DNA of 54,784 bases, taken from assembly GCA_002792535.1 (NCBI GenBank), contig PFOM01000009.1, forward strand, positions 1-54,784, written 5' to 3'. Both the position numbers and the translations under genes were made by a program. Origin of the DNA: Candidatus Peregrinibacteria bacterium CG_4_10_14_0_2_um_filter_38_24 (GTDB lineage: Bacteria; Patescibacteriota; Gracilibacteria; UBA1369; LOWO2-01-FULL-3). The notes beneath the pieces were generated by a model that made no database searches, had not been told where the DNA came from, and saw only the letters and a list, made by a program, of their open reading frames with translations. Shown here piece after piece: positions 2,102-44,901 of this stretch (positions within the stretch are counted from its first letter, which is position 1; each line of letters begins with the position of its first letter).

Positions 2102-3826
2102 ATGCAAATTGCAGAAGAGGCTCTAAAAAAAGTTTTAATTGAAAAAGATCTTCTAAAGGAAGAAAAAATTGAGCTTTTAAAAAAACAGGCAAAAACCGAA
2201 GGTAAAACTTTGATAGATTTGATGTTTGAAAAGGAAGTGATTTCAGATCTAGAACTTGGCAAAATTATAGCTGAAATAAACGGAGTTCCATTCATAAAGC
2301 TATCGGATATAAATATCGTGGAAACATTGTTGAAGATCGTACCTTACGCAGTAGCTTCGCATCAATTGGTCATGCCTTTCAAGGAAACTCCGGGGCAGAT
2401 ACATATCGCGATGTACGAGCCTGAAAACAAGGAAATGATAAACTTCCTTGAGCAAAAAACAGGACAAAAAATTGTTCCGTATTTTGCCACAAAAAAAGAC
2501 ATTAAAGCCTCGCTAAAAATCTACAATAGCGATATAAATAAAAAATTTAACGATCTCCTTCAAAGAGTTCTTGCTGATCCTTCAAAAATCGAATCGCTAA
2601 AAGATGCGGCCAAAATTTTGGATACCGTAATTCTTTTTGCATATCAAAATAATTCTTCAGATATTCATATCGAACCGCAAAAAACGGGACTACTCGTCAG
2701 ATACAGAATCGACGGACTTTTACACACGATTACAGAGCTTCCACATGCAGTGGAAGAGCTTTTGATCGCCAGAATAAAAGTTCTCGCGGGAATGAGGACG
2801 GACGAACATAGATCTCCGCAAGACGGACGTTTTAAAATCGATTTGGACGGAAACGAAATCACACTCCGTGTATCGATTTTACCGGTTTACGAAGGAGAAA
2901 AAATCGTACTCAGATTGCTAAGTTCACAAAAACAGGAACTGAATCTCGATGTACTTGGATACACTCCAAAAAATCTTGCAATTATCAAGGCAAATATCGC
3001 AAAAACGCATGGAATGTTGCTTGTGACAGGACCGACAGGTTCAGGTAAAACAACAACACTTTATTCGATTTTAAAACTTCTAAATTCACCTGAAGTAAAT
3101 ATTTCAACAATCGAAGATCCGATCGAGTACAGACTCGAAGGAGTTAACCAAATTCAGGTTAATGCAAAAACAGATCTTACCTTCGCGAACGGACTTCGTT
3201 CTATTTTGAGACAAGATCCGGACATCGTGATGGTCGGAGAGATTCGTGATGAAGAAACAGCCGGCATCGCGATAAACGCGGCGTTAACGGGACATCTCGT
3301 GCTCGCAACTTTACATACGAATGATGCCGCAACAACTCTTCCACGTTTGTTGGAAATGGGCGTCGAAGGATTTTTGGTCGCGGCGACAACAAACGCAATC
3401 ATCGCACAAAGGTTGGTCAGAAAAATTTGTGCGCACTGTAAAGAAGAATACAAAGTTACAAGACAAGTCCTGAAAGACATGAGTACAAGCGCAAGAATCA
3501 AATACGACATCTTGGAAGTTTTCGACAAAGTGGTGCAAGAAAATCCGGAATTGTCAGTTAAAAAAACACCGGAAGAATTTATTTTAACAAAAGGAAAAGG
3601 ATGCGACCATTGTGGTCATACAGGTTTCGCAGGACGACTCGCCATAGCAGAAGCAATAGACATAACAGAAGGTGTCAAAGAATTAATTTTAAACAAAGGA
3701 AACGCAACTCAAATCGAGCAACTTGCCTACAAAGAAGGCATGATTCCGATGTTTATCGATGGAATGATAAAAGTCGTGAGAGGAACCACAACTATCGAAG
3801 AAGTACTTCGCGTAATGAGAGAATGA
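2102..3826 (+). CDS. pilB: Type IV pilus extension ATPase PilB (GspE family)
   Basis: A 574-residue cytoplasmic hexameric ATPase that powers pilus assembly at the inner face of the membrane. The N-terminal part (about 1-150) is the MshEN-like/GspE N-terminal domain; the ATPase core follows. Seen directly: Walker A GPTGSGKTTT (about 309-318), Asp box and Walker B DPDIVMVGEIRD (about 370), and a tetracysteine zinc site CAHC (about 443) with CDHC (about 501), typical of assembly rather than retraction ATPases. It is the first gene of the pilus operon, with pilC 15 bases downstream. It ends in tandem TGA-TAA stops. No PilT retraction ATPase is present in the window. Confidence 0.95.
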   Translation: MQIAEEALKKVLIEKDLLKEEKIELLKKQAKTEGKTLIDLMFEKEVISDLELGKIIAEINGVPFIKLSDINIVETLLKIVPYAVASHQLVMPFKETPGQIHIAMYEPENKEMINFLEQKTGQKIVPYFATKKDIKASLKIYNSDINKKFNDLLQRVLADPSKIESLKDAAKILDTVILFAYQNNSSDIHIEPQKTGLLVRYRIDGLLHTITELPHAVEELLIARIKVLAGMRTDEHRSPQDGRFKIDLDGNEITLRVSILPVYEGEKIVLRLLSSQKQELNLDVLGYTPKNLAIIKANIAKTHGMLLVTGPTGSGKTTTLYSILKLLNSPEVNISTIEDPIEYRLEGVNQIQVNAKTDLTFANGLRSILRQDPDIVMVGEIRDEETAGIAINAALTGHLVLATLHTNDAATTLPRLLEMGVEGFLVAATTNAIIAQRLVRKICAHCKEEYKVTRQVLKDMSTSARIKYDILEVFDKVVQENPELSVKKTPEEFILTKGKGCDHCGHTGFAGRLAIAEAIDITEGVKELILNKGNATQIEQLAYKEGMIPMFIDGMIKVVRGTTTIEEVLRVMRE

Positions 3827-3841
3827 TAATTCAACAACAAT

Positions 3842-5041
3842 ATGCCAAAATTTGAATACGTATTAACGACGAATGGAGGGAAACACGAAGACGGTGAAAT
3901 CTTCGCTCAAGATAGAGAAACTGCCATAAGAAAGCTACAAACGGCGGATAAAATCATCTTGTCGTGCAATGAAATAACAAAAGGAAAACACGAATGGTTT
4001 TGGGAAAAACCAAGTCTTTCTTCAGAAGATCTTTTGATGTTTACAAAATATCTCGCGGCAATGATTACAGCGGGAATTACAATCGCAGAAGCGTTTGATA
4101 TAATAATAAGCCAAACAAAAGATGCCGGATCAAAAAAGATGTTTGAAAATATCACGACGGCAATGAGAAACGGACAAACAATGTCGAAAAGCTTGGCATT
4201 ATATCCGGATGTTTTTTCCGAAATTTACGTGAATATGATCGGGATTGGAGAAGAAAGCGGAACGCTTGAACAAGCCTTAACCGGTCTTGAAACCCAGCTC
4301 GAAAAAGATGCAGACCTAAGAAGTAAAATTAAGGCCGCATTTATCTATCCGATAATAATTTTAATCGTCACACTTTTGATGGCATTTGGTATCGTAATTT
4401 TTATTATGCCAAAAGTTATGAAAATTTTTACGACATTCAAAGTGGATTTACCTCTCCCAACGAGAATTTTAATTTGGGGAACAAACAATGTTTGGCTTAT
4501 TCTTGCCACAACAATCGTTGCAGTGATAACAATGATTTTCTTGTTCAAATTTAAATTCATCAAGAAATTATGGAACAAACTTTCACTGCATTTTCCGATA
4601 TTTGGAAATATTTTGATAAAAACTTACTTGGCAAGATTTTCGAGAACACTCCATTCTCTTTTGCAAAGTGGAATAGTAATGACGAAAGCTCTTCAAATTT
4701 CATCTGAAACAATCGGAAGCGAAACATACAAAGACATAATTATTGAATCAAAACAAAAAGTCGAACAAGGTGGTTCGCTATCAAGCAGTTTAGAATCTCA
4801 TCCAAAATATTTTCCGACAATTATGGCTAAAATGTTGATGGTGGGGGAGAAAACGGGAAGTATGGAAAAAGCAGTCGGCCACTTGGCAAATTTATATGAA
4901 AAAGAAGTGGACAATATCACGAAGAATTTATCAGTCTTACTTGAACCTTTACTCCTTATTTTTATGGCGACAATAGTGGGAGGACTCGCGATTTCCATCA
5001 TCATGCCGATTTATCAATTGCCTAATTTGATTTCGAAATAA
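3842..5041 (+). CDS. pilC: Type IV pilus inner-membrane platform protein PilC (GspF family)
   Basis: A 399-residue polytopic membrane protein that anchors PilB and couples ATP use to pilin polymerisation. Two GspF-type helical domains are visible: one after about residue 65 (LLMFTKYLAAMITAG) and a second after about 260 (LARFSRTLHSLLQSG), the internal duplication typical of the family. Membrane segments lie near 165-190, 213-235 and 370-393. The first ~60 residues form a soluble start. It sits between pilB and the first minor pilin, one base before the next ATG, so translation is probably coupled. Confidence 0.95.
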   Translation: MPKFEYVLTTNGGKHEDGEIFAQDRETAIRKLQTADKIILSCNEITKGKHEWFWEKPSLSSEDLLMFTKYLAAMITAGITIAEAFDIIISQTKDAGSKKMFENITTAMRNGQTMSKSLALYPDVFSEIYVNMIGIGEESGTLEQALTGLETQLEKDADLRSKIKAAFIYPIIILIVTLLMAFGIVIFIMPKVMKIFTTFKVDLPLPTRILIWGTNNVWLILATTIVAVITMIFLFKFKFIKKLWNKLSLHFPIFGNILIKTYLARFSRTLHSLLQSGIVMTKALQISSETIGSETYKDIIIESKQKVEQGGSLSSSLESHPKYFPTIMAKMLMVGEKTGSMEKAVGHLANLYEKEVDNITKNLSVLLEPLLLIFMATIVGGLAISIIMPIYQLPNLISK

Positions 5042-5042
5042 C

Positions 5043-5522
5043 ATGAAAAATATTTTAAAAAAATTAGGGGGAAACGAAAAAGGATTTAGCCTGACGGAAA
5101 TAACTATAGTCCTGATAATTCTTGCAATCGGATTCGGTTTTTCAGTTTTATATACGCAAACAATCCAAGTGCAATCCGACTTAAAATCAATCTCTTCAAA
5201 TTTTGTAGGATTAGCCAGGACCGCACAGAGCAACGCAAACTCAGGCAAGCAAGGCGTCGGGACAGGGGTTCATTTGGACACAAAAGAATATGTGCTTTTC
5301 GAGGGCGGAGTTTACGACCCGAATGCTCCGACAAATTACACGGTGGAAATGCCTTCAACAATTGACATTCAAAATATAAATCTAAACGGAGGAGGAAGTG
5401 AGGTGATTTTTCTATCTCCAAAAGGAGAGACAAACACTCACGGGACATTCTCGTTTTTCTCTTCGCAAAACAACAAATCTATACCAATAACAATCACAAA
5501 CATTGGGTCTATCCAATATTAA
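5043..5522 (+). CDS. Minor pilin/pseudopilin (GspH/FimT-like)
   Basis: 159 residues with a class III signal: KGF at residues 13-15 cut after Gly, Phe+1 and Glu+5 (FSLTE), then a hydrophobic helix to about residue 40. The rest is a small soluble domain without a recognised fold. By size and place it resembles GspH/FimT minor pilins that prime pilus assembly. It begins one base after pilC and its 3' end overlaps the next gene. A prepilin peptidase is needed for maturation and is not in this window. Confidence 0.85.
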   Translation: MKNILKKLGGNEKGFSLTEITIVLIILAIGFGFSVLYTQTIQVQSDLKSISSNFVGLARTAQSNANSGKQGVGTGVHLDTKEYVLFEGGVYDPNAPTNYTVEMPSTIDIQNINLNGGGSEVIFLSPKGETNTHGTFSFFSSQNNKSIPITITNIGSIQY

Positions 5523-7341
5523 AAAAGCAGGAATCTCGATCGTCGAAGTGGTCCTTGCGGCCGGAATTTTCGCAATATTTTCGACTTCTATTTTCTATTT
5601 GTCCGCAGATTCTTTACAAGGTTCTGAAAAAATTGAAGAAAACAATAAAGCAATTTTATATGCACAGGAAGGAATCGAAGCGACAAGACAAATGAGAGAC
5701 AAAAATTATCTATTACTTGAACCGGGAGACCACGGACTTAATCTGACAAACGACACATGGTCATTTATTCAAGCGCCGGAAGATATAGACGGCTACTATA
5801 GCAGAACAATTTTCATTAGTGACGTTTTCAGAGACGGAAATGGGAATATATCGGATTCAGGAACCTTAGATCCGGATATCAAAGAAATTACTTCCAAAAT
5901 AGAATGGCTATACAGAGGCATTCTCCCAAGATCTTTTGAGTTAACGACATATCTCGCGGATTGGAGGGGAAATGACATTATCCAGACAGATTGCACGGAA
6001 TTTAATAGCGGAACTCTTACGGATACGGAAACAATTTCAACTCTCGCTCCACCGGAAGATAATTGCGCTATCAAGCTTTCCATAGAAGAATCTCAAAGCG
6101 AATTTTTAGTTTCGGCGGACGTAGGAGAACATGGAAATGACGTAGTAGTCGATGGAAATTACGCATACGTCTCGACCGAAAAAACGAATGGAGGTCTTGC
6201 AGTAGTGGATATTACAAATAGACAAGCCCCAGTCGTAGTAACTGCAATCGATATTGGAGCAAAAGGTAATTCGGTCACAAAGATTGGAAATTATGTATAT
6301 GTCGGCACAGGAAAGAGCTCAGGAGGATTGGCGGTAATAAACGCAACAACTCCGGCCAGCGCAACATTACTAACAACAAAAAACATTGGAGGAGAGGGGA
6401 TATCGATAGCATCCAGTGGCAATTATCTGTACATGGGAATAGACGGAAGTAGTCCAAAATTTGTTGTATTAGACGTTTCAAATCCGGCATCTCCATCAAT
6501 ATTATCTTCTTCAAATTCTCCAGGGAATATCTACGGAATAGAAATTACAGGAGGATACGCATATGTCGGAATGGATTATGATTGGCAGGGCTTTAGAATT
6601 TACAATATTTCAAATTCCGCCTCTCCGACAGTTGTTTCAAATCTTGGATTAAACGAAGAGGTTAATGTGGTGAAAGTCCAAGGTCCTTACGCATTTTTGG
6701 GAACGGAAGCAAATTCTTTTTACGTAATAGATGTTTCAAATCCGGCATTACCGTCAGTAACAAAAAAAATAACCACAGCCGCGGAAATCCAAGGCATTAC
6801 GATTCAGGGAGATTATGCCTACGTGGCAATGAACACCAATAGTCAAAATTTATCAGCTATAAATATCTCAACACCGGCAAACCCATACGTAGTTTACACA
6901 AAAGATTTGGGAGGCAAGGGTAGTGGAATAACAAGCGATGCAAATTATATTTATGAAACAATCATCGTAAACAACAAAGGCTTGGTTATCAATGGAACAA
7001 CGGTTCTTGAAACGTTGCCTGCAGGGGATTATGTCTCCACGCCTTTCGACACCGGAAGTTCAGATCCAAGATATAATTATTTGAAATGGGCGGCGGAAGC
7101 GACAATAGGATCCACAGTAAAATTACAAATAAGAACCGCAGACACAGAGGTCGGATTAGCTGACGCTATGTGGGTCGGTAGCGACGGGAATAATGGGACC
7201 TATTACGAAAATTCCGGCATGCAAATCACAGTTTCGCCGAGTGCATCGGGAACAAGATATATTCAGTTTAAGATACAAATTATGTCAGACGGAGTAAACA
7301 CACCATTCGTAGAATCAGTAACTATCAACTACAATCCATGA
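5503..7341 (+). CDS. Minor pilin fused to a seven-bladed-type beta-propeller (LVIVD repeats)
   Basis: 612 residues. The N-terminus has a type III prepilin motif (KKAG then ISIVE, Glu at +5) and a hydrophobic helix to about 32, followed by a PilV/GspI-like stretch (AQEGIEATRQMRDKNY) to about 190. Residues about 200-500 hold repeated blades of the form GNYAYVST...LAVVDITN, recognisable as LVIVD beta-propeller repeats. The last ~110 residues form a separate beta-rich domain (VSTPFDTGS ... YIQFKIQI) common in secreted adhesive proteins. It begins with TTG at 5503, overlapping the previous gene by 20 bases. It is likely a tip or surface-exposed binding subunit. The exact number of blades is my count by eye. 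Confidence 0.85.
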   Translation: MGLSNIKKAGISIVEVVLAAGIFAIFSTSIFYLSADSLQGSEKIEENNKAILYAQEGIEATRQMRDKNYLLLEPGDHGLNLTNDTWSFIQAPEDIDGYYSRTIFISDVFRDGNGNISDSGTLDPDIKEITSKIEWLYRGILPRSFELTTYLADWRGNDIIQTDCTEFNSGTLTDTETISTLAPPEDNCAIKLSIEESQSEFLVSADVGEHGNDVVVDGNYAYVSTEKTNGGLAVVDITNRQAPVVVTAIDIGAKGNSVTKIGNYVYVGTGKSSGGLAVINATTPASATLLTTKNIGGEGISIASSGNYLYMGIDGSSPKFVVLDVSNPASPSILSSSNSPGNIYGIEITGGYAYVGMDYDWQGFRIYNISNSASPTVVSNLGLNEEVNVVKVQGPYAFLGTEANSFYVIDVSNPALPSVTKKITTAAEIQGITIQGDYAYVAMNTNSQNLSAINISTPANPYVVYTKDLGGKGSGITSDANYIYETIIVNNKGLVINGTTVLETLPAGDYVSTPFDTGSSDPRYNYLKWAAEATIGSTVKLQIRTADTEVGLADAMWVGSDGNNGTYYENSGMQITVSPSASGTRYIQFKIQIMSDGVNTPFVESVTINYNP

Positions 7342-7838
7342 GAAAAATAACCTCACAAAAAGGATTCACATTGATAGAAATAGTAGCTTATTTTGCAATA
7401 ACAAGCGTGTTCCTATTTGCAATCTCGGTATTTGCATTGCAAATAATAGATGCATCAAGGCTTTCTGAAAACATGAATGAAATTCAATACAGTGACACAT
7501 TTTCAACAAGCAAATTTATTGAAAAAATTCATAGTGCTCTGAGTGTAGATACAGGCAATAGTGTCTTTGACAACGACACAGGGAAATTAGCTTTAAACGG
7601 ATCTCCAAACATATTGTTCTATTTAGAGAATTCAAATATTTATATCAAAGAAGAAAACGAAACTCCGATAAAATTAAATGCCAACGCAACAAATGTAACA
7701 AAGTTAAGATTTCACCAAATTACTGCGGCAAAAACACCGACACAAATTGTCATAGATGGGGAAATTAATACAATGTCGAACATATCAAATTTGTCACACA
7801 CTTATCCATTTCACTTATCAGTATCACTACGAAAATGA
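7338..7838 (+). CDS. Minor pilin/pseudopilin (PilW/GspJ-like)
   Basis: 166 residues with a class III prepilin signal: QKG followed by FTLIE (Glu+5) and a hydrophobic helix to about residue 35, then a soluble domain with conserved-looking NSNIYIKEEN and LRFHQI stretches seen in PilW/GspJ-type minor pilins. Its ATG overlaps the TGA of the preceding gene as ATGA, and its own TGA overlaps the next ATG in the same way, so all three are probably translated together. The PilW/GspJ assignment rests on gene order and on the LRFHQI-type C-terminal strand; family is certain only at pseudopilin level. Confidence 0.8.
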   Translation: MRKITSQKGFTLIEIVAYFAITSVFLFAISVFALQIIDASRLSENMNEIQYSDTFSTSKFIEKIHSALSVDTGNSVFDNDTGKLALNGSPNILFYLENSNIYIKEENETPIKLNANATNVTKLRFHQITAAKTPTQIVIDGEINTMSNISNLSHTYPFHLSVSLRK

Positions 7839-8233
7839 AGAATTTACTAAAAACACAAAGAGGTTCTATCGCACTGATAAGCATGTTAATCATCTCAGCA
7901 TTCGTGCTACTTTTAGCGGTAGGAATGGCGGAAAATAGCATTTCCACCGGTTATCAAAACGTTAATAGTTCTCTAAATGAATATTCAAATAACTATGCCG
8001 AAGGATGTTTTGAGGAAGCCATTCATAGGATTGAATCAGATATTAATTTTAGTGGATATACGTTCAATTTTACAGATGGAACTTGTATAATAAGTGTAAG
8101 TGGAGCAAATCCAAAAACAATAGACGTAACATTGAATTATTTAGATTATTCTCAAACGTTCAGGGGAATTGTAAATATTACTCAAGTTGGGCATGCAACA
8201 AATGCAACCCTTTCTACTTGGACAGAAATCTAA
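7835..8233 (+). CDS. PilX-like minor pilin component
   Basis: 132 residues. The N-terminus (QRGSIALISMLIISAFVLLL) resembles PilX proteins, which keep a hydrophobic pilin helix but often lack the Glu at +5, as here. The remainder contains EYSNNYAEGCFEEAI, a stretch like the PilX region following the helix, and two Cys that could pair. It follows the PilW-like gene by ATGA overlap and precedes pilM by 14 bases. Processing by the prepilin peptidase is uncertain because the Gly-Ser context is atypical. Confidence 0.7.
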   Translation: MKNLLKTQRGSIALISMLIISAFVLLLAVGMAENSISTGYQNVNSSLNEYSNNYAEGCFEEAIHRIESDINFSGYTFNFTDGTCIISVSGANPKTIDVTLNYLDYSQTFRGIVNITQVGHATNATLSTWTEI

Positions 8234-8247
8234 TATAATAAAAACCG

Positions 8248-9873
8248 ATGTCATTCTTCTCAAAAAAAATTATAGGATTAGACTTCCATGACTACTACGC
8301 TCAAGTGGTGGAAATGGAAGCATCGGGGGATGGAAATTCATTATTGGCTTTTAATAGAGTAGTAATCCCACCTCAAGTAATCAGAGACGGAGAAATTGTT
8401 AATCAAGAAGAATTAAAAAATATAATTACTACGCTTCTTGAAACAGCAAATCCAAAAGCAATAAAAGTAAAAAACGTGATTTGCAGTTTTCCCGAAAGAA
8501 AAGTTTTTACACATATTTTTAAATTTCCGGTAGAACTAAACCCAAAAGAAATTGAAAAAGCACTACCGTTTGAAGCTGAAAATGTAATCCCTTTTCTTGT
8601 TAAAGACATTTATTGGGATTTTAGAATTTTGCACAAGGATCCGCCAAAAACACCGCATGCTTCACAGTATGTTTTATTCGCAAGTGTCCAAAAACAAGTG
8701 GCAGATAGCTACGTAAAATTACTCACTTCAGTTGGACTAAATCCTTATGCTTTCACAATACATGCGGAATGCGTGGAAAATGCACTTAAAAGTCAGATTG
8801 AAAGAATGCCTTCATCGTTGGTAATAGACATAGGATATCTTGCAACGACATATTCAGTATTCAATAAATCGGAACTCAAAAATGTCTTCACATCTATGGA
8901 AAGTGGAAAAGGCCTTGTGAAAGAATTGGCTGAACAATCACAATTGCAGGAATTTGAAATCATTAATCAAAAAGAAAAAAATAATTTTGATCCGTCATTC
9001 ACTCCTCAAATAGAAAAATTTGAAAATAAAATTTTTGAAGAAACAAAAGTAATAATTAAAGATATTGACGTTAAAACGATATTCCTTACAGGAGAATTTT
9101 TAAACCTTTCAGGTTTTTATGATAACGCCAAAAAAGTGTTCCCTGATAAAGAAATTTTGCCGGGTGATCCACGTTTGGGAATAAAAGTGGACTCAGATAA
9201 ATTTACCCCATTGGACAAAAACAAAGGCGCATTCCCGTATTCAGTCTACTTCTCGACAGCCATGGGATTGGCGGTAAAAGGGCTAAACGCAAAGGACACA
9301 GGCATCAACTTATTGCCCGACTATCTCAAAGCTTCTTTCGCTTCCAAAAAATTATCACTATTGTTGGTTTTAACATCAATATCTTTAGCAATAGTTTCTT
9401 TAGTTCTAAGTACACTTGTCATTTTGAAACATCAGGAATTTTCTTTTCAAAGAGTCGATTCGGAAGGGGAAAAAAGCTCTCTACAGCAATTAATTTACGG
9501 AACAAGATATCAAGAAATCAAAAGAGCAATAACGGATTTTAATGCAGAAGTGACAGCATTAACTACGATTCAAAGTTCTTTATTTTCACTACCTGAATTA
9601 TTAAAAAACATAGTCAGTTCAATCCCAAAAGGAGCCACAATATCTTCTCTTGGATTCAACAACCAGGATTTGACCGTGAATATCAGTGGAATCGCAAACA
9701 CAAGAGAAACCCTATTGAATACAAGAAAAAAACTGGAAGAGGCTCCGTATGTAGAAAAAGTCATTGCGCCTCTATCGAATTTTGACGAAAAAGAAAACAT
9801 CTCATTCATATTAAAACTAGAATTAAAATTTAACGAATTAAAGCCTTATGCTTGGAATGGAATCCCAAAATAG
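8248..9873 (+). CDS. pilM: PilM-PilN fusion protein of the type IV pilus
   Basis: 541 residues joining two proteins that are usually separate. Residues 1 to about 355 are PilM, an actin-like cytoplasmic ATP-binding protein (IIGLDFHDYYAQVVE, PFEAENVIPF, VIDIGYLATTYSVF are the phosphate-binding and adenosine-type regions). A membrane helix follows at about 372-392 and then a PilN periplasmic domain ending in NISGIANTRETLLNTRKKLE, the ferredoxin-like PilN fold. In normal systems PilM binds the short cytoplasmic tail of PilN; here the link is covalent. It lies between minor pilins and the PilO-like gene, overlapping the latter by 26 bases. Confidence 0.85.
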   Translation: MSFFSKKIIGLDFHDYYAQVVEMEASGDGNSLLAFNRVVIPPQVIRDGEIVNQEELKNIITTLLETANPKAIKVKNVICSFPERKVFTHIFKFPVELNPKEIEKALPFEAENVIPFLVKDIYWDFRILHKDPPKTPHASQYVLFASVQKQVADSYVKLLTSVGLNPYAFTIHAECVENALKSQIERMPSSLVIDIGYLATTYSVFNKSELKNVFTSMESGKGLVKELAEQSQLQEFEIINQKEKNNFDPSFTPQIEKFENKIFEETKVIIKDIDVKTIFLTGEFLNLSGFYDNAKKVFPDKEILPGDPRLGIKVDSDKFTPLDKNKGAFPYSVYFSTAMGLAVKGLNAKDTGINLLPDYLKASFASKKLSLLLVLTSISLAIVSLVLSTLVILKHQEFSFQRVDSEGEKSSLQQLIYGTRYQEIKRAITDFNAEVTALTTIQSSLFSLPELLKNIVSSIPKGATISSLGFNNQDLTVNISGIANTRETLLNTRKKLEEAPYVEKVIAPLSNFDEKENISFILKLELKFNELKPYAWNGIPK

Positions 9874-10546
9874 GATAGACGATCCGAGAGAATCGGAAGA
9901 TTACGGAGATGCCACCACTCAGCCGGTAAAAATATCATCACCGGAGGACAACTCTCACGACGAAGGCACCGGAACTTTGGCGAAAAGAATCATACATATA
10001 TGTTTGATATTTGTAATCCTTGGTTTCTTTGGTACGTCCATCATCGGGATGTCTTCGTTAAGTATAAAAACTGACATAAGCGAGAATAAATCTTTTATTA
10101 AAGTCGCGGAAGAAATGCGTCCAAACTTTGAAGATAGCTTATTACTTTACACAGGAAATACTCAAAAAGTTATAGACTTTTTATTGAAATTACGACCTCA
10201 AACGGAAGAGGAATTTATCACATTTATCACCACATTGGAACGTCTCGGAAAAGAACTTTCTCTAAATCTGGATATCAGGACTATTGACGAGAAAGATCAG
10301 CAACCCGACACGAAAAAATCAACAGATGAAGGCGTCACTTATAATATTAATTTTTACGGAAGTCTAAAAGATATGCAATCTTTCATAACTGAACTTGATA
10401 AAATTCCTTATTACATAAAAATTTCAAACATAAAATATCAAAATCTATCACTTAAAGATGGGGCGCAAGACAAGAAATTAGATGGACTTACAAATATCTC
10501 GATAGAACTTCAATTATTCACAAAAAAAAGAAATGCAAATCAATGA
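9848..10546 (+). CDS. pilO: PilO-like type IV pilus assembly protein
   Basis: 232 residues: an acidic soluble N-terminus of about 50, one membrane helix (about 52-72, HICLIFVILGFFGTSIIGM), and a periplasmic part with KVIDFLLKLRP and a C-terminal ferredoxin-like pattern (YNINFYGSLKDMQSFITELDKIP) typical of PilO. PilO pairs with PilN to align the machine. The order after a PilM-PilN gene supports the call. The longer acidic N-terminus is unusual for PilO and could be a species-specific extension; the start at 9848 gives a 26-base overlap with the previous gene, with an internal Met a few codons later as an alternative. Confidence 0.7.
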   Translation: MLGMESQNRIDDPRESEDYGDATTQPVKISSPEDNSHDEGTGTLAKRIIHICLIFVILGFFGTSIIGMSSLSIKTDISENKSFIKVAEEMRPNFEDSLLLYTGNTQKVIDFLLKLRPQTEEEFITFITTLERLGKELSLNLDIRTIDEKDQQPDTKKSTDEGVTYNINFYGSLKDMQSFITELDKIPYYIKISNIKYQNLSLKDGAQDKKLDGLTNISIELQLFTKKRNANQ

Positions 10547-10782: not shown

Positions 10783-11232
10783 ATGAAAAAGATCCTCAAC
10801 AGGAAGGGCTTCACGTTAGTTGAAGTGCTCCTAGTAGTTGTCATCATTGCGATTTTGGCAGCTATCGTCATCATTGCCATTAATCCGGCAAGACAAATCG
10901 CTCAAGCGAACAACACTCAGAGAAGTTCAGATGTCCAAGCTGTTATAAATGCTGTTCATCAGTCGGCAATTGATAATCGTGGAACACTTCCAACTGAAAT
11001 CACTGTTACAGCTACAGTTATTGGTAGTGCTGTAGGACAGATTGATATTTGTACAATATTAGTCCCTACCTACATGGCGGCAATGCCATTTGATCCTACG
11101 TCAACAGGTGCGGGATACACGGATTGCACAAATTACAACACAGGATATACAATCCTAAAAACTGCTGAAGGAAGAGTAACAGTCTCTGCTCCATCAGCCG
11201 AACTTTCAAAGACAATCAGCGTTACACGATAG
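10783..11232 (+). CDS. pilA: Type IV major pilin (prepilin)
   Basis: 149 residues with a textbook prepilin start: short basic leader MKKILNRKG, cleavage after Gly9, then FTLVEVLLVVVIIAILAA with Phe+1 and Glu+5. Helix one continues through NPARQIAQANNTQRSSDVQAV, the amphipathic segment conserved in CPR and Gram-positive pilins. The globular domain has two Cys (ICTIL and TDCTNY) that may form a disulphide. It ends the pilus operon, just before a strong terminator; the only other candidates are longer and less typical, so this is the likely structural subunit. Confidence 0.92.
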   Translation: MKKILNRKGFTLVEVLLVVVIIAILAAIVIIAINPARQIAQANNTQRSSDVQAVINAVHQSAIDNRGTLPTEITVTATVIGSAVGQIDICTILVPTYMAAMPFDPTSTGAGYTDCTNYNTGYTILKTAEGRVTVSAPSAELSKTISVTR

Positions 11233-34982: not shown

Positions 34983-35729
34983 CTATTTCGCCAAAGCCTT
35001 ATCTATAACTTGCTCATACGCTTCAAGGCTATATAGCCCATCCATCATATAGCCATTGATAAGAAATCCGGGAGTTCCTCTGAATCCGATATTGGTAGCA
35101 TCTTGTGAATCCTTTGCTACTTCATCTTTGAATGTATCAGCGGCAACGCATGAATCAAATTTAGATAGATTTGCTCCTGATTTTCCGGCAGATTTCCTCA
35201 AGCTTTCCCCAGTCATTTCTTCAGAAAGCGCCGCTTCAAAAATATTTTCATTCATCGCATAATACATCTCGTCTCCACCTTGATCTTTCACGCACTCGGC
35301 CGCAAGCGCAGCAGGATAAGCATTTGGATGAATTGAAGTAAGTGGAAGATCTCTATAAACAAAATTCATTTTACCGGTATCAATATATTTTTCTTTCAAT
35401 GTTGGGAAAACTTCGGCATGAAATCTTTGGCAAACCGGACATTGATAATCTGAAAATTCAATCATTGTGACAGGAGCATCGCTATCCCCAAGAACCGCAT
35501 CATCATCAGTATAATCACCTTCAATTATCGTTCCAGTCTTGTCTTCCGGTTGAGCCTCGGCTTGTTGTTTCGCAATGAAAGCCTTGATGCCTTCCTCAAC
35601 TTTCGAATTGAAAACATCATCAGTCATTTTATTTGCATACTCGTATCCGAAAAAAGATAGAGACCCGGAAACAAGGATAGAAGCCACTAGAATAGAAACC
35701 GGAAGCAATTTGTTTGATTTTTTTTTCAT
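34983..35729 (-). CDS. Membrane-anchored DsbA-like thiol-disulphide oxidoreductase
   Basis: 248 residues: an N-terminal membrane anchor (about 10-28), a linker, then a DsbA/Com1-type thioredoxin fold. The redox site is CPVC in FSDYQCPVCQRFH (about 95-98), and the cis-Pro loop is GFRGTPGFLING near the C-terminus. It forms or rearranges disulphides in exported proteins, which fits the Cys-containing pilin and other exported proteins in the window. It follows the M29 aminopeptidase gene by 15 bases on the minus strand. A VKOR or DsbB partner is not seen here. Confidence 0.92.
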   Translation of the reverse strand: MKKKSNKLLPVSILVASILVSGSLSFFGYEYANKMTDDVFNSKVEEGIKAFIAKQQAEAQPEDKTGTIIEGDYTDDDAVLGDSDAPVTMIEFSDYQCPVCQRFHAEVFPTLKEKYIDTGKMNFVYRDLPLTSIHPNAYPAALAAECVKDQGGDEMYYAMNENIFEAALSEEMTGESLRKSAGKSGANLSKFDSCVAADTFKDEVAKDSQDATNIGFRGTPGFLINGYMMDGLYSLEAYEQVIDKALAK

Positions 35730-44031: not shown

Positions 44032-44901
44032 ATGACAGAATATTTCAAAATACATATAAACCCACACGAGTTTCCGCACGAGCAAATTCCGAAGGAGCCT
44101 CTACCTCAAAAAGAAGCTCCGGTGGAGGAACAAAGAACACTTAAAACCATATTGAAAGATGGTGCCAGGCAGATTATAGCTAGCGCGGTTATATTGGGAA
44201 TAGGTATTTTAGCTCTCAATTGGTCTGCATACTATGAAATCGCGAAAGATGAGTTCAAAACGCTTACCGGTACGCACGTGGAAAGCCCTTTAAACAAGCT
44301 TATAGAAACACCTAAAACGCCAGAAACAAGTCAAGCGGCGGACACAGCCAAAACAGCGCAGGCAAATACTCTAAACACTCAAAATATCCCGGCTTTAAAT
44401 ATAGAAATAGCCCCAAGTGACAATAGACTTATAATCCCTCGAATAGATCAAAATCTTCCGATTGTCAGGATTAGCAGTGAAACGCTTATAAGACGAGACT
44501 GGAGTGCTCTTGAGAAAGAAATGCAAAATGCTTTGCAAGGAGGCGTGGTTCACTACCCTGGAACAAGTATCCCCGGAGAATTGGGAAACATGGCTATTAC
44601 TGGGCACAGTTCGTATTTCCCATGGGATTCAGGCAGATTTAAAGATGTTTTTGCGCTTTTGCACAATGTCGTGGAAGGCGACAAAATAGTCATGTATTGG
44701 GAAGGCAAAAAATATATATATGAAGTAACCGAAATAAAGATCGTTCTTCCGAGCGACATATCTATCTTGAAACAAACTCCTGACAGTACATTGACTCTGA
44801 TAACATGTACTCCGGTTGGAACAAATCTAAAAAGACTTGTCGTCAGAGCAAAGCCAGTCGAAGATGTTGGCCAATCAAACGATGGGAAAATAAAAAGATA
44901 A
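44032..44901 (+). CDS. Sortase family transpeptidase
   Basis: 289 residues. An N-terminal membrane helix (about 50-70) is followed by a linker rich in Thr/Ala/Gln and a sortase domain. Catalytic residues: His in ITGHSSYF (about 190), Cys in TLITCTPVG (about 262), Arg in KRLVVRAKP (about 272). It cleaves a C-terminal sorting signal and attaches proteins to the envelope or links pilins. Class looks like D/E from motif spacing (TLxTC form). No protein with an obvious LPxTG-type signal was found in this window. Convergent with the following minus-strand pair, two-base gap. Confidence 0.92.
   Translation: MTEYFKIHINPHEFPHEQIPKEPLPQKEAPVEEQRTLKTILKDGARQIIASAVILGIGILALNWSAYYEIAKDEFKTLTGTHVESPLNKLIETPKTPETSQAADTAKTAQANTLNTQNIPALNIEIAPSDNRLIIPRIDQNLPIVRISSETLIRRDWSALEKEMQNALQGGVVHYPGTSIPGELGNMAITGHSSYFPWDSGRFKDVFALLHNVVEGDKIVMYWEGKKYIYEVTEIKIVLPSDISILKQTPDSTLTLITCTPVGTNLKRLVVRAKPVEDVGQSNDGKIKR

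Follow-up and report, generated by a model that had tools for sequence, protein, structure and literature searches.

What does a pilin with a beta-propeller built into it do for an ultrasmall bacterium? The gene in question lies at positions 5503-7341 (+ strand) of the window, the whole 54,784-nucleotide stretch of Candidatus Peregrinibacteria contig PFOM01000009.1 that was analysed. The source bacterium belongs to an ultrasmall, uncultured group believed to live attached to other microbial cells, and it presumably has an episymbiotic host. An earlier note had described the product as a 612-residue minor pilin with a prepilin motif, LVIVD propeller repeats and a distinct C-terminal domain, its gene starting by TTG inside the preceding gene, and had proposed it as a binding head; the gene and the domains that it described all held up. 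The open reading frame spanned exactly 5503-7341 (+), with 612 uninterrupted codons, and its TTG start lay 20 nt within the upstream pilin ORF (5043-5522). No ATG, GTG or TTG other than this start was present upstream of the cleavage site, and the TTG was the sole usual start option because the open frame began just four codons before it.

The N-terminus carried the prepilin motif KAG/ISIVE with Glu5, followed by a hydrophobic helix. This combination is the class III prepilin signature of modular type IV pilins, and the additional C-terminal part that is not pilus-specific was also found, here as an LVIVD propeller plus a beta-sandwich. The Pfam N_methyl match to the protein itself reached 15.4 bits, under the cut-off of 21.2; 14 of 17 homologues matched N_methyl (best E 1.3e-6) and 13 of 17 matched the IV_pilin model. 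The motif predicts leader removal between G10 and I11, and the source genome encoded a prepilin peptidase and pilus machine genes. The leader peptide (residues 1-10, LGLSNIKKAG; 5503-5532), whose coding sequence overlapped the 3' end of the preceding pilin gene, was followed by the pilin N-terminal helix (residues 11-66; 5533-5700), which was supported by the homologue matches to N_methyl and IV_pilin and modelled by AlphaFold2 as helices 13-37 and 40-66, and by the pilin globular beta domain (residues 67-156; 5701-5970), which ended at W154-x-G156. A linker (residues 157-199; 5971-6099) held Cys164 (5992-5994) and Cys188 (6064-6066). Both cysteines were invariant in a 15-sequence alignment and missing from the most divergent homologues; a disulfide between them, placed between pilin and propeller, is possible. 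A DsbA-like thioredoxin-fold protein (CPVC) was encoded elsewhere in the window (34983-35729, - strand) and is a possible oxidant of this pair.

The structure prediction that the earlier note had called for was obtained with 15 homologues (mean pLDDT 83.5, pTM 0.61) and gave a pilin helix (13-66), a pilin beta domain up to about residue 161, a seven-bladed propeller and a C-terminal beta-sandwich. The propeller (residues 200-507; 6100-7023) was modelled at about 202-504 as seven four-stranded blades with pLDDT about 93 and a blade repeat of ~43 aa. PF08309 (LVIVD) matched five separate repeat stretches with an E-value of 2.3e-27 and 94.5 bits, against a gathering score of 20.2, and Foldseek returned WD40-type propellers (e.g., 3ow8_B, TMt 0.83), showing that this is an LVIVD repeat propeller. 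Fold matches in BFVD were mostly generic propellers and were set aside, and a PDB sequence search with the whole protein returned noise alone. The protein was the only LVIVD protein detected in the 1.1-Mb source genome. LVIVD propellers also occur in LVIVD-repeat/choice-of-anchor B surface proteins, but those are usually secreted or anchored otherwise, and TIGR04312 (choice-of-anchor B) scored 33.4 bits on our protein against a cut-off of 100. In several loci of the class (L056-L058, L063-L065, L070, L071, L074, L078 and L080), in-frame TGA codons were seen in or near LVIVD ORFs, suggesting a code-25-like reading; these members appeared to carry the propeller in secreted proteins, since their N-termini, where contained within the locus, were signal-like and not prepilin.

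The C-terminal beta-sandwich (residues 508-612; 7024-7338) was modelled with pLDDT about 57-87 in the full prediction, and the fold was retained when the domain was modelled separately (pLDDT 81). It had no confident known relative: Foldseek against the PDB gave no significant match (best E 0.013), and Pfam gave no family, the best hit being CBM_35_2 in 2 of 15 members (E 0.018). An antibody light-chain match was discarded as a similarity of low quality. The unit was nevertheless conserved, and similar domains were found in large, non-homologous, pilin-free proteins of relatives (729 aa in G004 and 952 aa in G027), indicating that it is a mobile module distinct from the pilin part. By eye, the 729-aa protein (L027, G004:C9) carried apparent SLH repeats at its end, which would give the domain a different surface anchor.

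The gene lay within a pilus operon on the + strand. Upstream were a PilB-type extension ATPase (2102-3826; MshEN and T2SSE), a PilC platform protein (3842-5041; T2SSF) and a GspH/FimU/ComGD-like minor pilin (5043-5522) assigned by profile matches. Downstream were a PilW/GspJ/ComGF-like minor pilin (7338-7838; ComGF E 0.004 and position), a PilX/GspK-like minor pilin (7835-8233; GspK E 0.06, position and sequence) with a hydrophobic N-terminus (RGSIALISML) lacking Glu5, a PilM with a PilN-like C-terminal part (8248-9873; PF11104 E 1.6e-21, and PF05137 E 8e-4, below the cut-off), a PilO-like protein (9848-10546) assigned by its conserved position alone, with no family match, and a probable major pilin PilA (10783-11232; profile matches and conserved position). 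The ORF at 8248-9873 is a probable PilM-PilN fusion, and its counterparts in relatives were similar in length. This order was identical in all loci L036-L049, to the limit of each contig, and the stretch from PilC through the GspH-like pilin and the propeller pilin to the PilW- and PilX-like pilins recurred in distant Patescibacteria (L136, L137, L138 and L141); in one other (L140) the propeller pilin came after the PilW-like gene. The neighbours matched ComGD, ComGF and GspK and were arranged as in comG, with the propeller pilin sitting between the H-type and the J- and K-type pilins, and the set lying between platform protein and PilM. Homologues matched the PilV model (11 of 17; best E 4.6e-7, weak even at best), ComGE (13 of 17) and GspI (8 of 17). 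The propeller pilin shared gene position, N-terminal helix and weak profile matches with classical PilV/GspI/ComGE pilins; these have no extra head, however, and its own ComGE match (E 0.096, 12.8 bits) was far under the curated cut-off of 49. We therefore assigned it to the PilV/GspI/ComGE slot from gene position together with the weak profile matches of its homologues.

Full-length homologues were sought in 60 related genomes (E at most 1e-40, with the match spanning pilin, propeller and C-terminal domain) and were present in 19 of them, the source genome included, at 27-94% identity and spread over the order; named records belonged to Candidatus Peregrinibacteria or Gracilibacteria. Two loci (L042 and L044) came from records titled Nitrospirota/Nitrospirae; their contigs matched genomes of the window family, and they are probably misnamed MAGs. 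All 19 genomes also had the PilC type of this operon (E at most 1e-70), and the 39 genomes lacking this type all lacked the propeller pilin too. Two genomes had the PilC type without the propeller pilin; in one (G051) a contig end cuts it, and in the other (G022) a different head occupied the slot. The association was strong (Fisher p 1e-13 over 60 genomes, shared ancestry not corrected). Since 19 of 60 relatives have the propeller pilin, in every case together with this PilC type, the operon encodes an accessory pilus with its own PilC. About two thirds of close relatives were without it, indicating that this pilus system is not essential for the lifestyle.

On balance, these results favour a modular protein that fills the PilV/GspI/ComGE minor-pilin slot of an accessory type IV pilus and carries a head for binding at the tip. 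The reading offered by the earlier note, in which a minor pilin bears a propeller, a terminal beta domain and so a plausible binding head, fits the domains, the tip slot, the dedicated pilus and the exchangeable heads described below. By analogy, the protein most likely acts as an adhesin at the tip of a pilus dedicated to attachment, with the propeller and outer domain probably forming a ready-made gripping head for a partner cell. Prepilin peptidase would cut off the 10-residue leader, after which the N-terminal helix and small pilin domain would lock the protein into a four-pilin filament cap. The tip location is suggested by slot homology; in the structural model of the Com pilus, four ComG minor pilins cap the filament (PMC12153270). 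The propeller and beta-sandwich, too bulky for the shaft, would be displayed at the tip, and there they would act as a binding head with which the cell could reach a surface or a partner and hold on to it. Retraction of the pilus could then pull the partner or surface in.

Adhesion and a ligand for the head are suggested by PilX2 of Saccharibacteria, PilB and PilC of Streptococcus, and PilY1. PilX2 of Nanosynbacter lyticus TM7x (T4P-2, Saccharibacteria) is likewise a minor pilin from the Patescibacteria that bears a seven-bladed propeller. Its genome, too, encodes more than one pilus, and PilX2 belongs to an accessory one of type IV; when it was deleted, host binding dropped from 10.6% of hosts to 4.6% (PMC12206443). 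By contrast, PilX2 as described has an RCC1-type propeller, was reported without a PilD signal and is named as a PilX, whereas our protein has an LVIVD propeller, a prepilin motif, a PilV-type slot and an extra beta-sandwich; RCC1 in Pfam matched neither our protein nor its 17-member family. Modular type IV pilins are an established kind, in which a functional domain sits on a small pilin module with predicted tip exposure, and the heads tested are the vWA of S. sanguinis PilB and the lectin of PilC (Raynaud et al. 2021, PMC8179133). Among the pilins in the 2021 survey is one from Falkowbacteria that has 12 copies of IPR013211, described there as a motif of unknown function (PMC8179133); IPR013211 is the LVIVD repeat (PMC10210494). 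The portion of the survey cited here describes neither a propeller pilin nor conservation of slot or system. Our literature search found no paper joining LVIVD and pilin by name. Thus modular pilins, one LVIVD-repeat pilin and a propeller pilin with a measured host-binding role in the same phylum are already on record; the present analysis adds the three-domain layout, the PilV-type slot, the link with a distinct pilus system and the swapping of heads.

The same pilin-plus-LVIVD layout, which the earlier note had proposed seeking in other CPR genomes, was common in Patescibacteria. A continuous match from pilin through propeller was found in at least 27 genomes of about 16 families in a 380-genome phylum sample, and most of these, counted over the matches listed, continued through the C-terminal domain. 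Some families of the class had pilin and propeller but no C-terminal domain (about 450-620 aa, e.g., L082-L090), others had this domain as well (L098 and L091) or had an inserted domain (L096). Different heads were also seen in the slot: FN3 in G009, and others in G022 and at a second locus of G039. In one genome (G208), another slot-type pilin followed in tandem, 987 aa long and bearing LamG domains. The slot may thus be a dedicated dock for exchangeable heads (LVIVD, FN3 or LamG) on a distinct accessory attachment pilus of Patescibacteria, with a swap setting the partner or surface recognised; we put this forward tentatively. Tandem duplicates of slot-type pilins were further noted in family f30 (L126:4361-9149 and L130:3-3267); in L126 one carried the LVIVD propeller and the next LamG plus DUF4215. 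Four loci with related operons (L114:9362-11248, L123:10373-13159, L127:9182-12190 and L129:5681-6841) showed that other minor pilins bear big heads too: GspH-like pilins with FN3 (629 aa) or LamG (929 aa), a GspH-like ORF of 1003 aa that matched TSP_3/BNR weakly, and a PilX-like pilin of 387 aa for which no family matched.

CPR pili are frequently associated with DNA uptake, and the lectin-like LamG and FN3 heads of relatives are compatible with glycan or matrix binding, so the head might bind something other than a partner cell: a polysaccharide, the surface of a mineral or matrix, or DNA that is to be taken up. We regard this as rather unlikely. Against the DNA version, binding in the Com pilus lies in ComGD/ComGF and ComGE mutants are normal (PMC12153270), and other pilus loci of the source genome could serve DNA uptake. 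Two further PilC loci were located on contigs C33 and C39, and PilB-type ATPases on C8, C39 and C11.

The propeller could instead be mainly an assembly or priming module, one that makes the tip complex stable and initiates the filament without direct adhesion, as in Myxococcus, where PilY1 likewise has a propeller and the pilus is primed and capped by FimU/PilV/PilW/PilX with PilY1 (PMC7541494). PilY1 gave no match in 353 class genomes in a search run without a positive control. PilY1/PilC adhesins resemble the model proposed here in showing a beta-propeller at the pilus tip via minor pilins, but PilY1, a non-pilin, carries a type I signal peptide, whereas our protein has a prepilin-type N-terminus; PF05567 (PilY1) was absent from its Pfam matches. 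At the C33 locus lay a PilV paralogue (PilV model E 9e-6) that has no head; its final residues, NWKGGAL, aligned to W-x-G at residues 154-156, showing that in the sequence alignment it stops exactly at the graft point of the head. Because head-less paralogues exist in the same genome, and alternative heads such as FN3 and LamG in the same slot of relatives, assembly does not generally require the propeller, and TM7x filaments form even without PilX2 (PMC12206443). A priming role is therefore unlikely.

A type II secretion-like pseudopilus, with the propeller engaging or releasing cargo, is suggested by neighbours for which pseudopilin models of the GspH/GspG type and pilin models both give matches, but is very unlikely: inner components of the PilM/PilN type, together with a PilT encoded elsewhere (TIGR01420, E 5e-136), point to a type IV pilus, and a short piston would hardly accommodate an external head of ~450 residues. 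The frameshift or sequencing error that the earlier note had named as its refutation, joining a pilin to an unrelated secreted propeller gene of the non-pilin LVIVD kind that does occur in the class, was excluded, as the fusion frame was continuous, and sat in the same slot of the operon, both in the sibling of 94% identity and in numerous distant genomes, with a dN/dS of 0.10.

That value, for the whole gene against the sibling, was matched by 0.098 for the propeller (one close pair), showing purifying selection on the gene, propeller included; the one close pair compared gave no sign that the propeller is diversifying under selection, a point against the binding-head reading. Across the order, the propeller was the least conserved folded domain, with a mean pairwise identity of 36% versus 44-47%. 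A viral origin was also considered and rejected, as IMG/VR held no relatives and PHROG gave no match.

Host recognition by ultrasmall episymbionts is understood mainly in a few cultured Saccharibacteria. The conserved, syntenic pilin with its ready-made head (about 450 soluble residues once the pilin part is taken off) offers a specific protein to express and crystallise, and one that could serve as bait for the partner organism of uncultured Peregrinibacteria-type lineages. Elsewhere in the source genome, an oversized 425-aa pilin was present (G000:C17:14080-14151; L142 971-2245, - strand). A sortase-like sequence with TLITC near its C-terminus was noted by eye at 44032-44901 (+) of the window.
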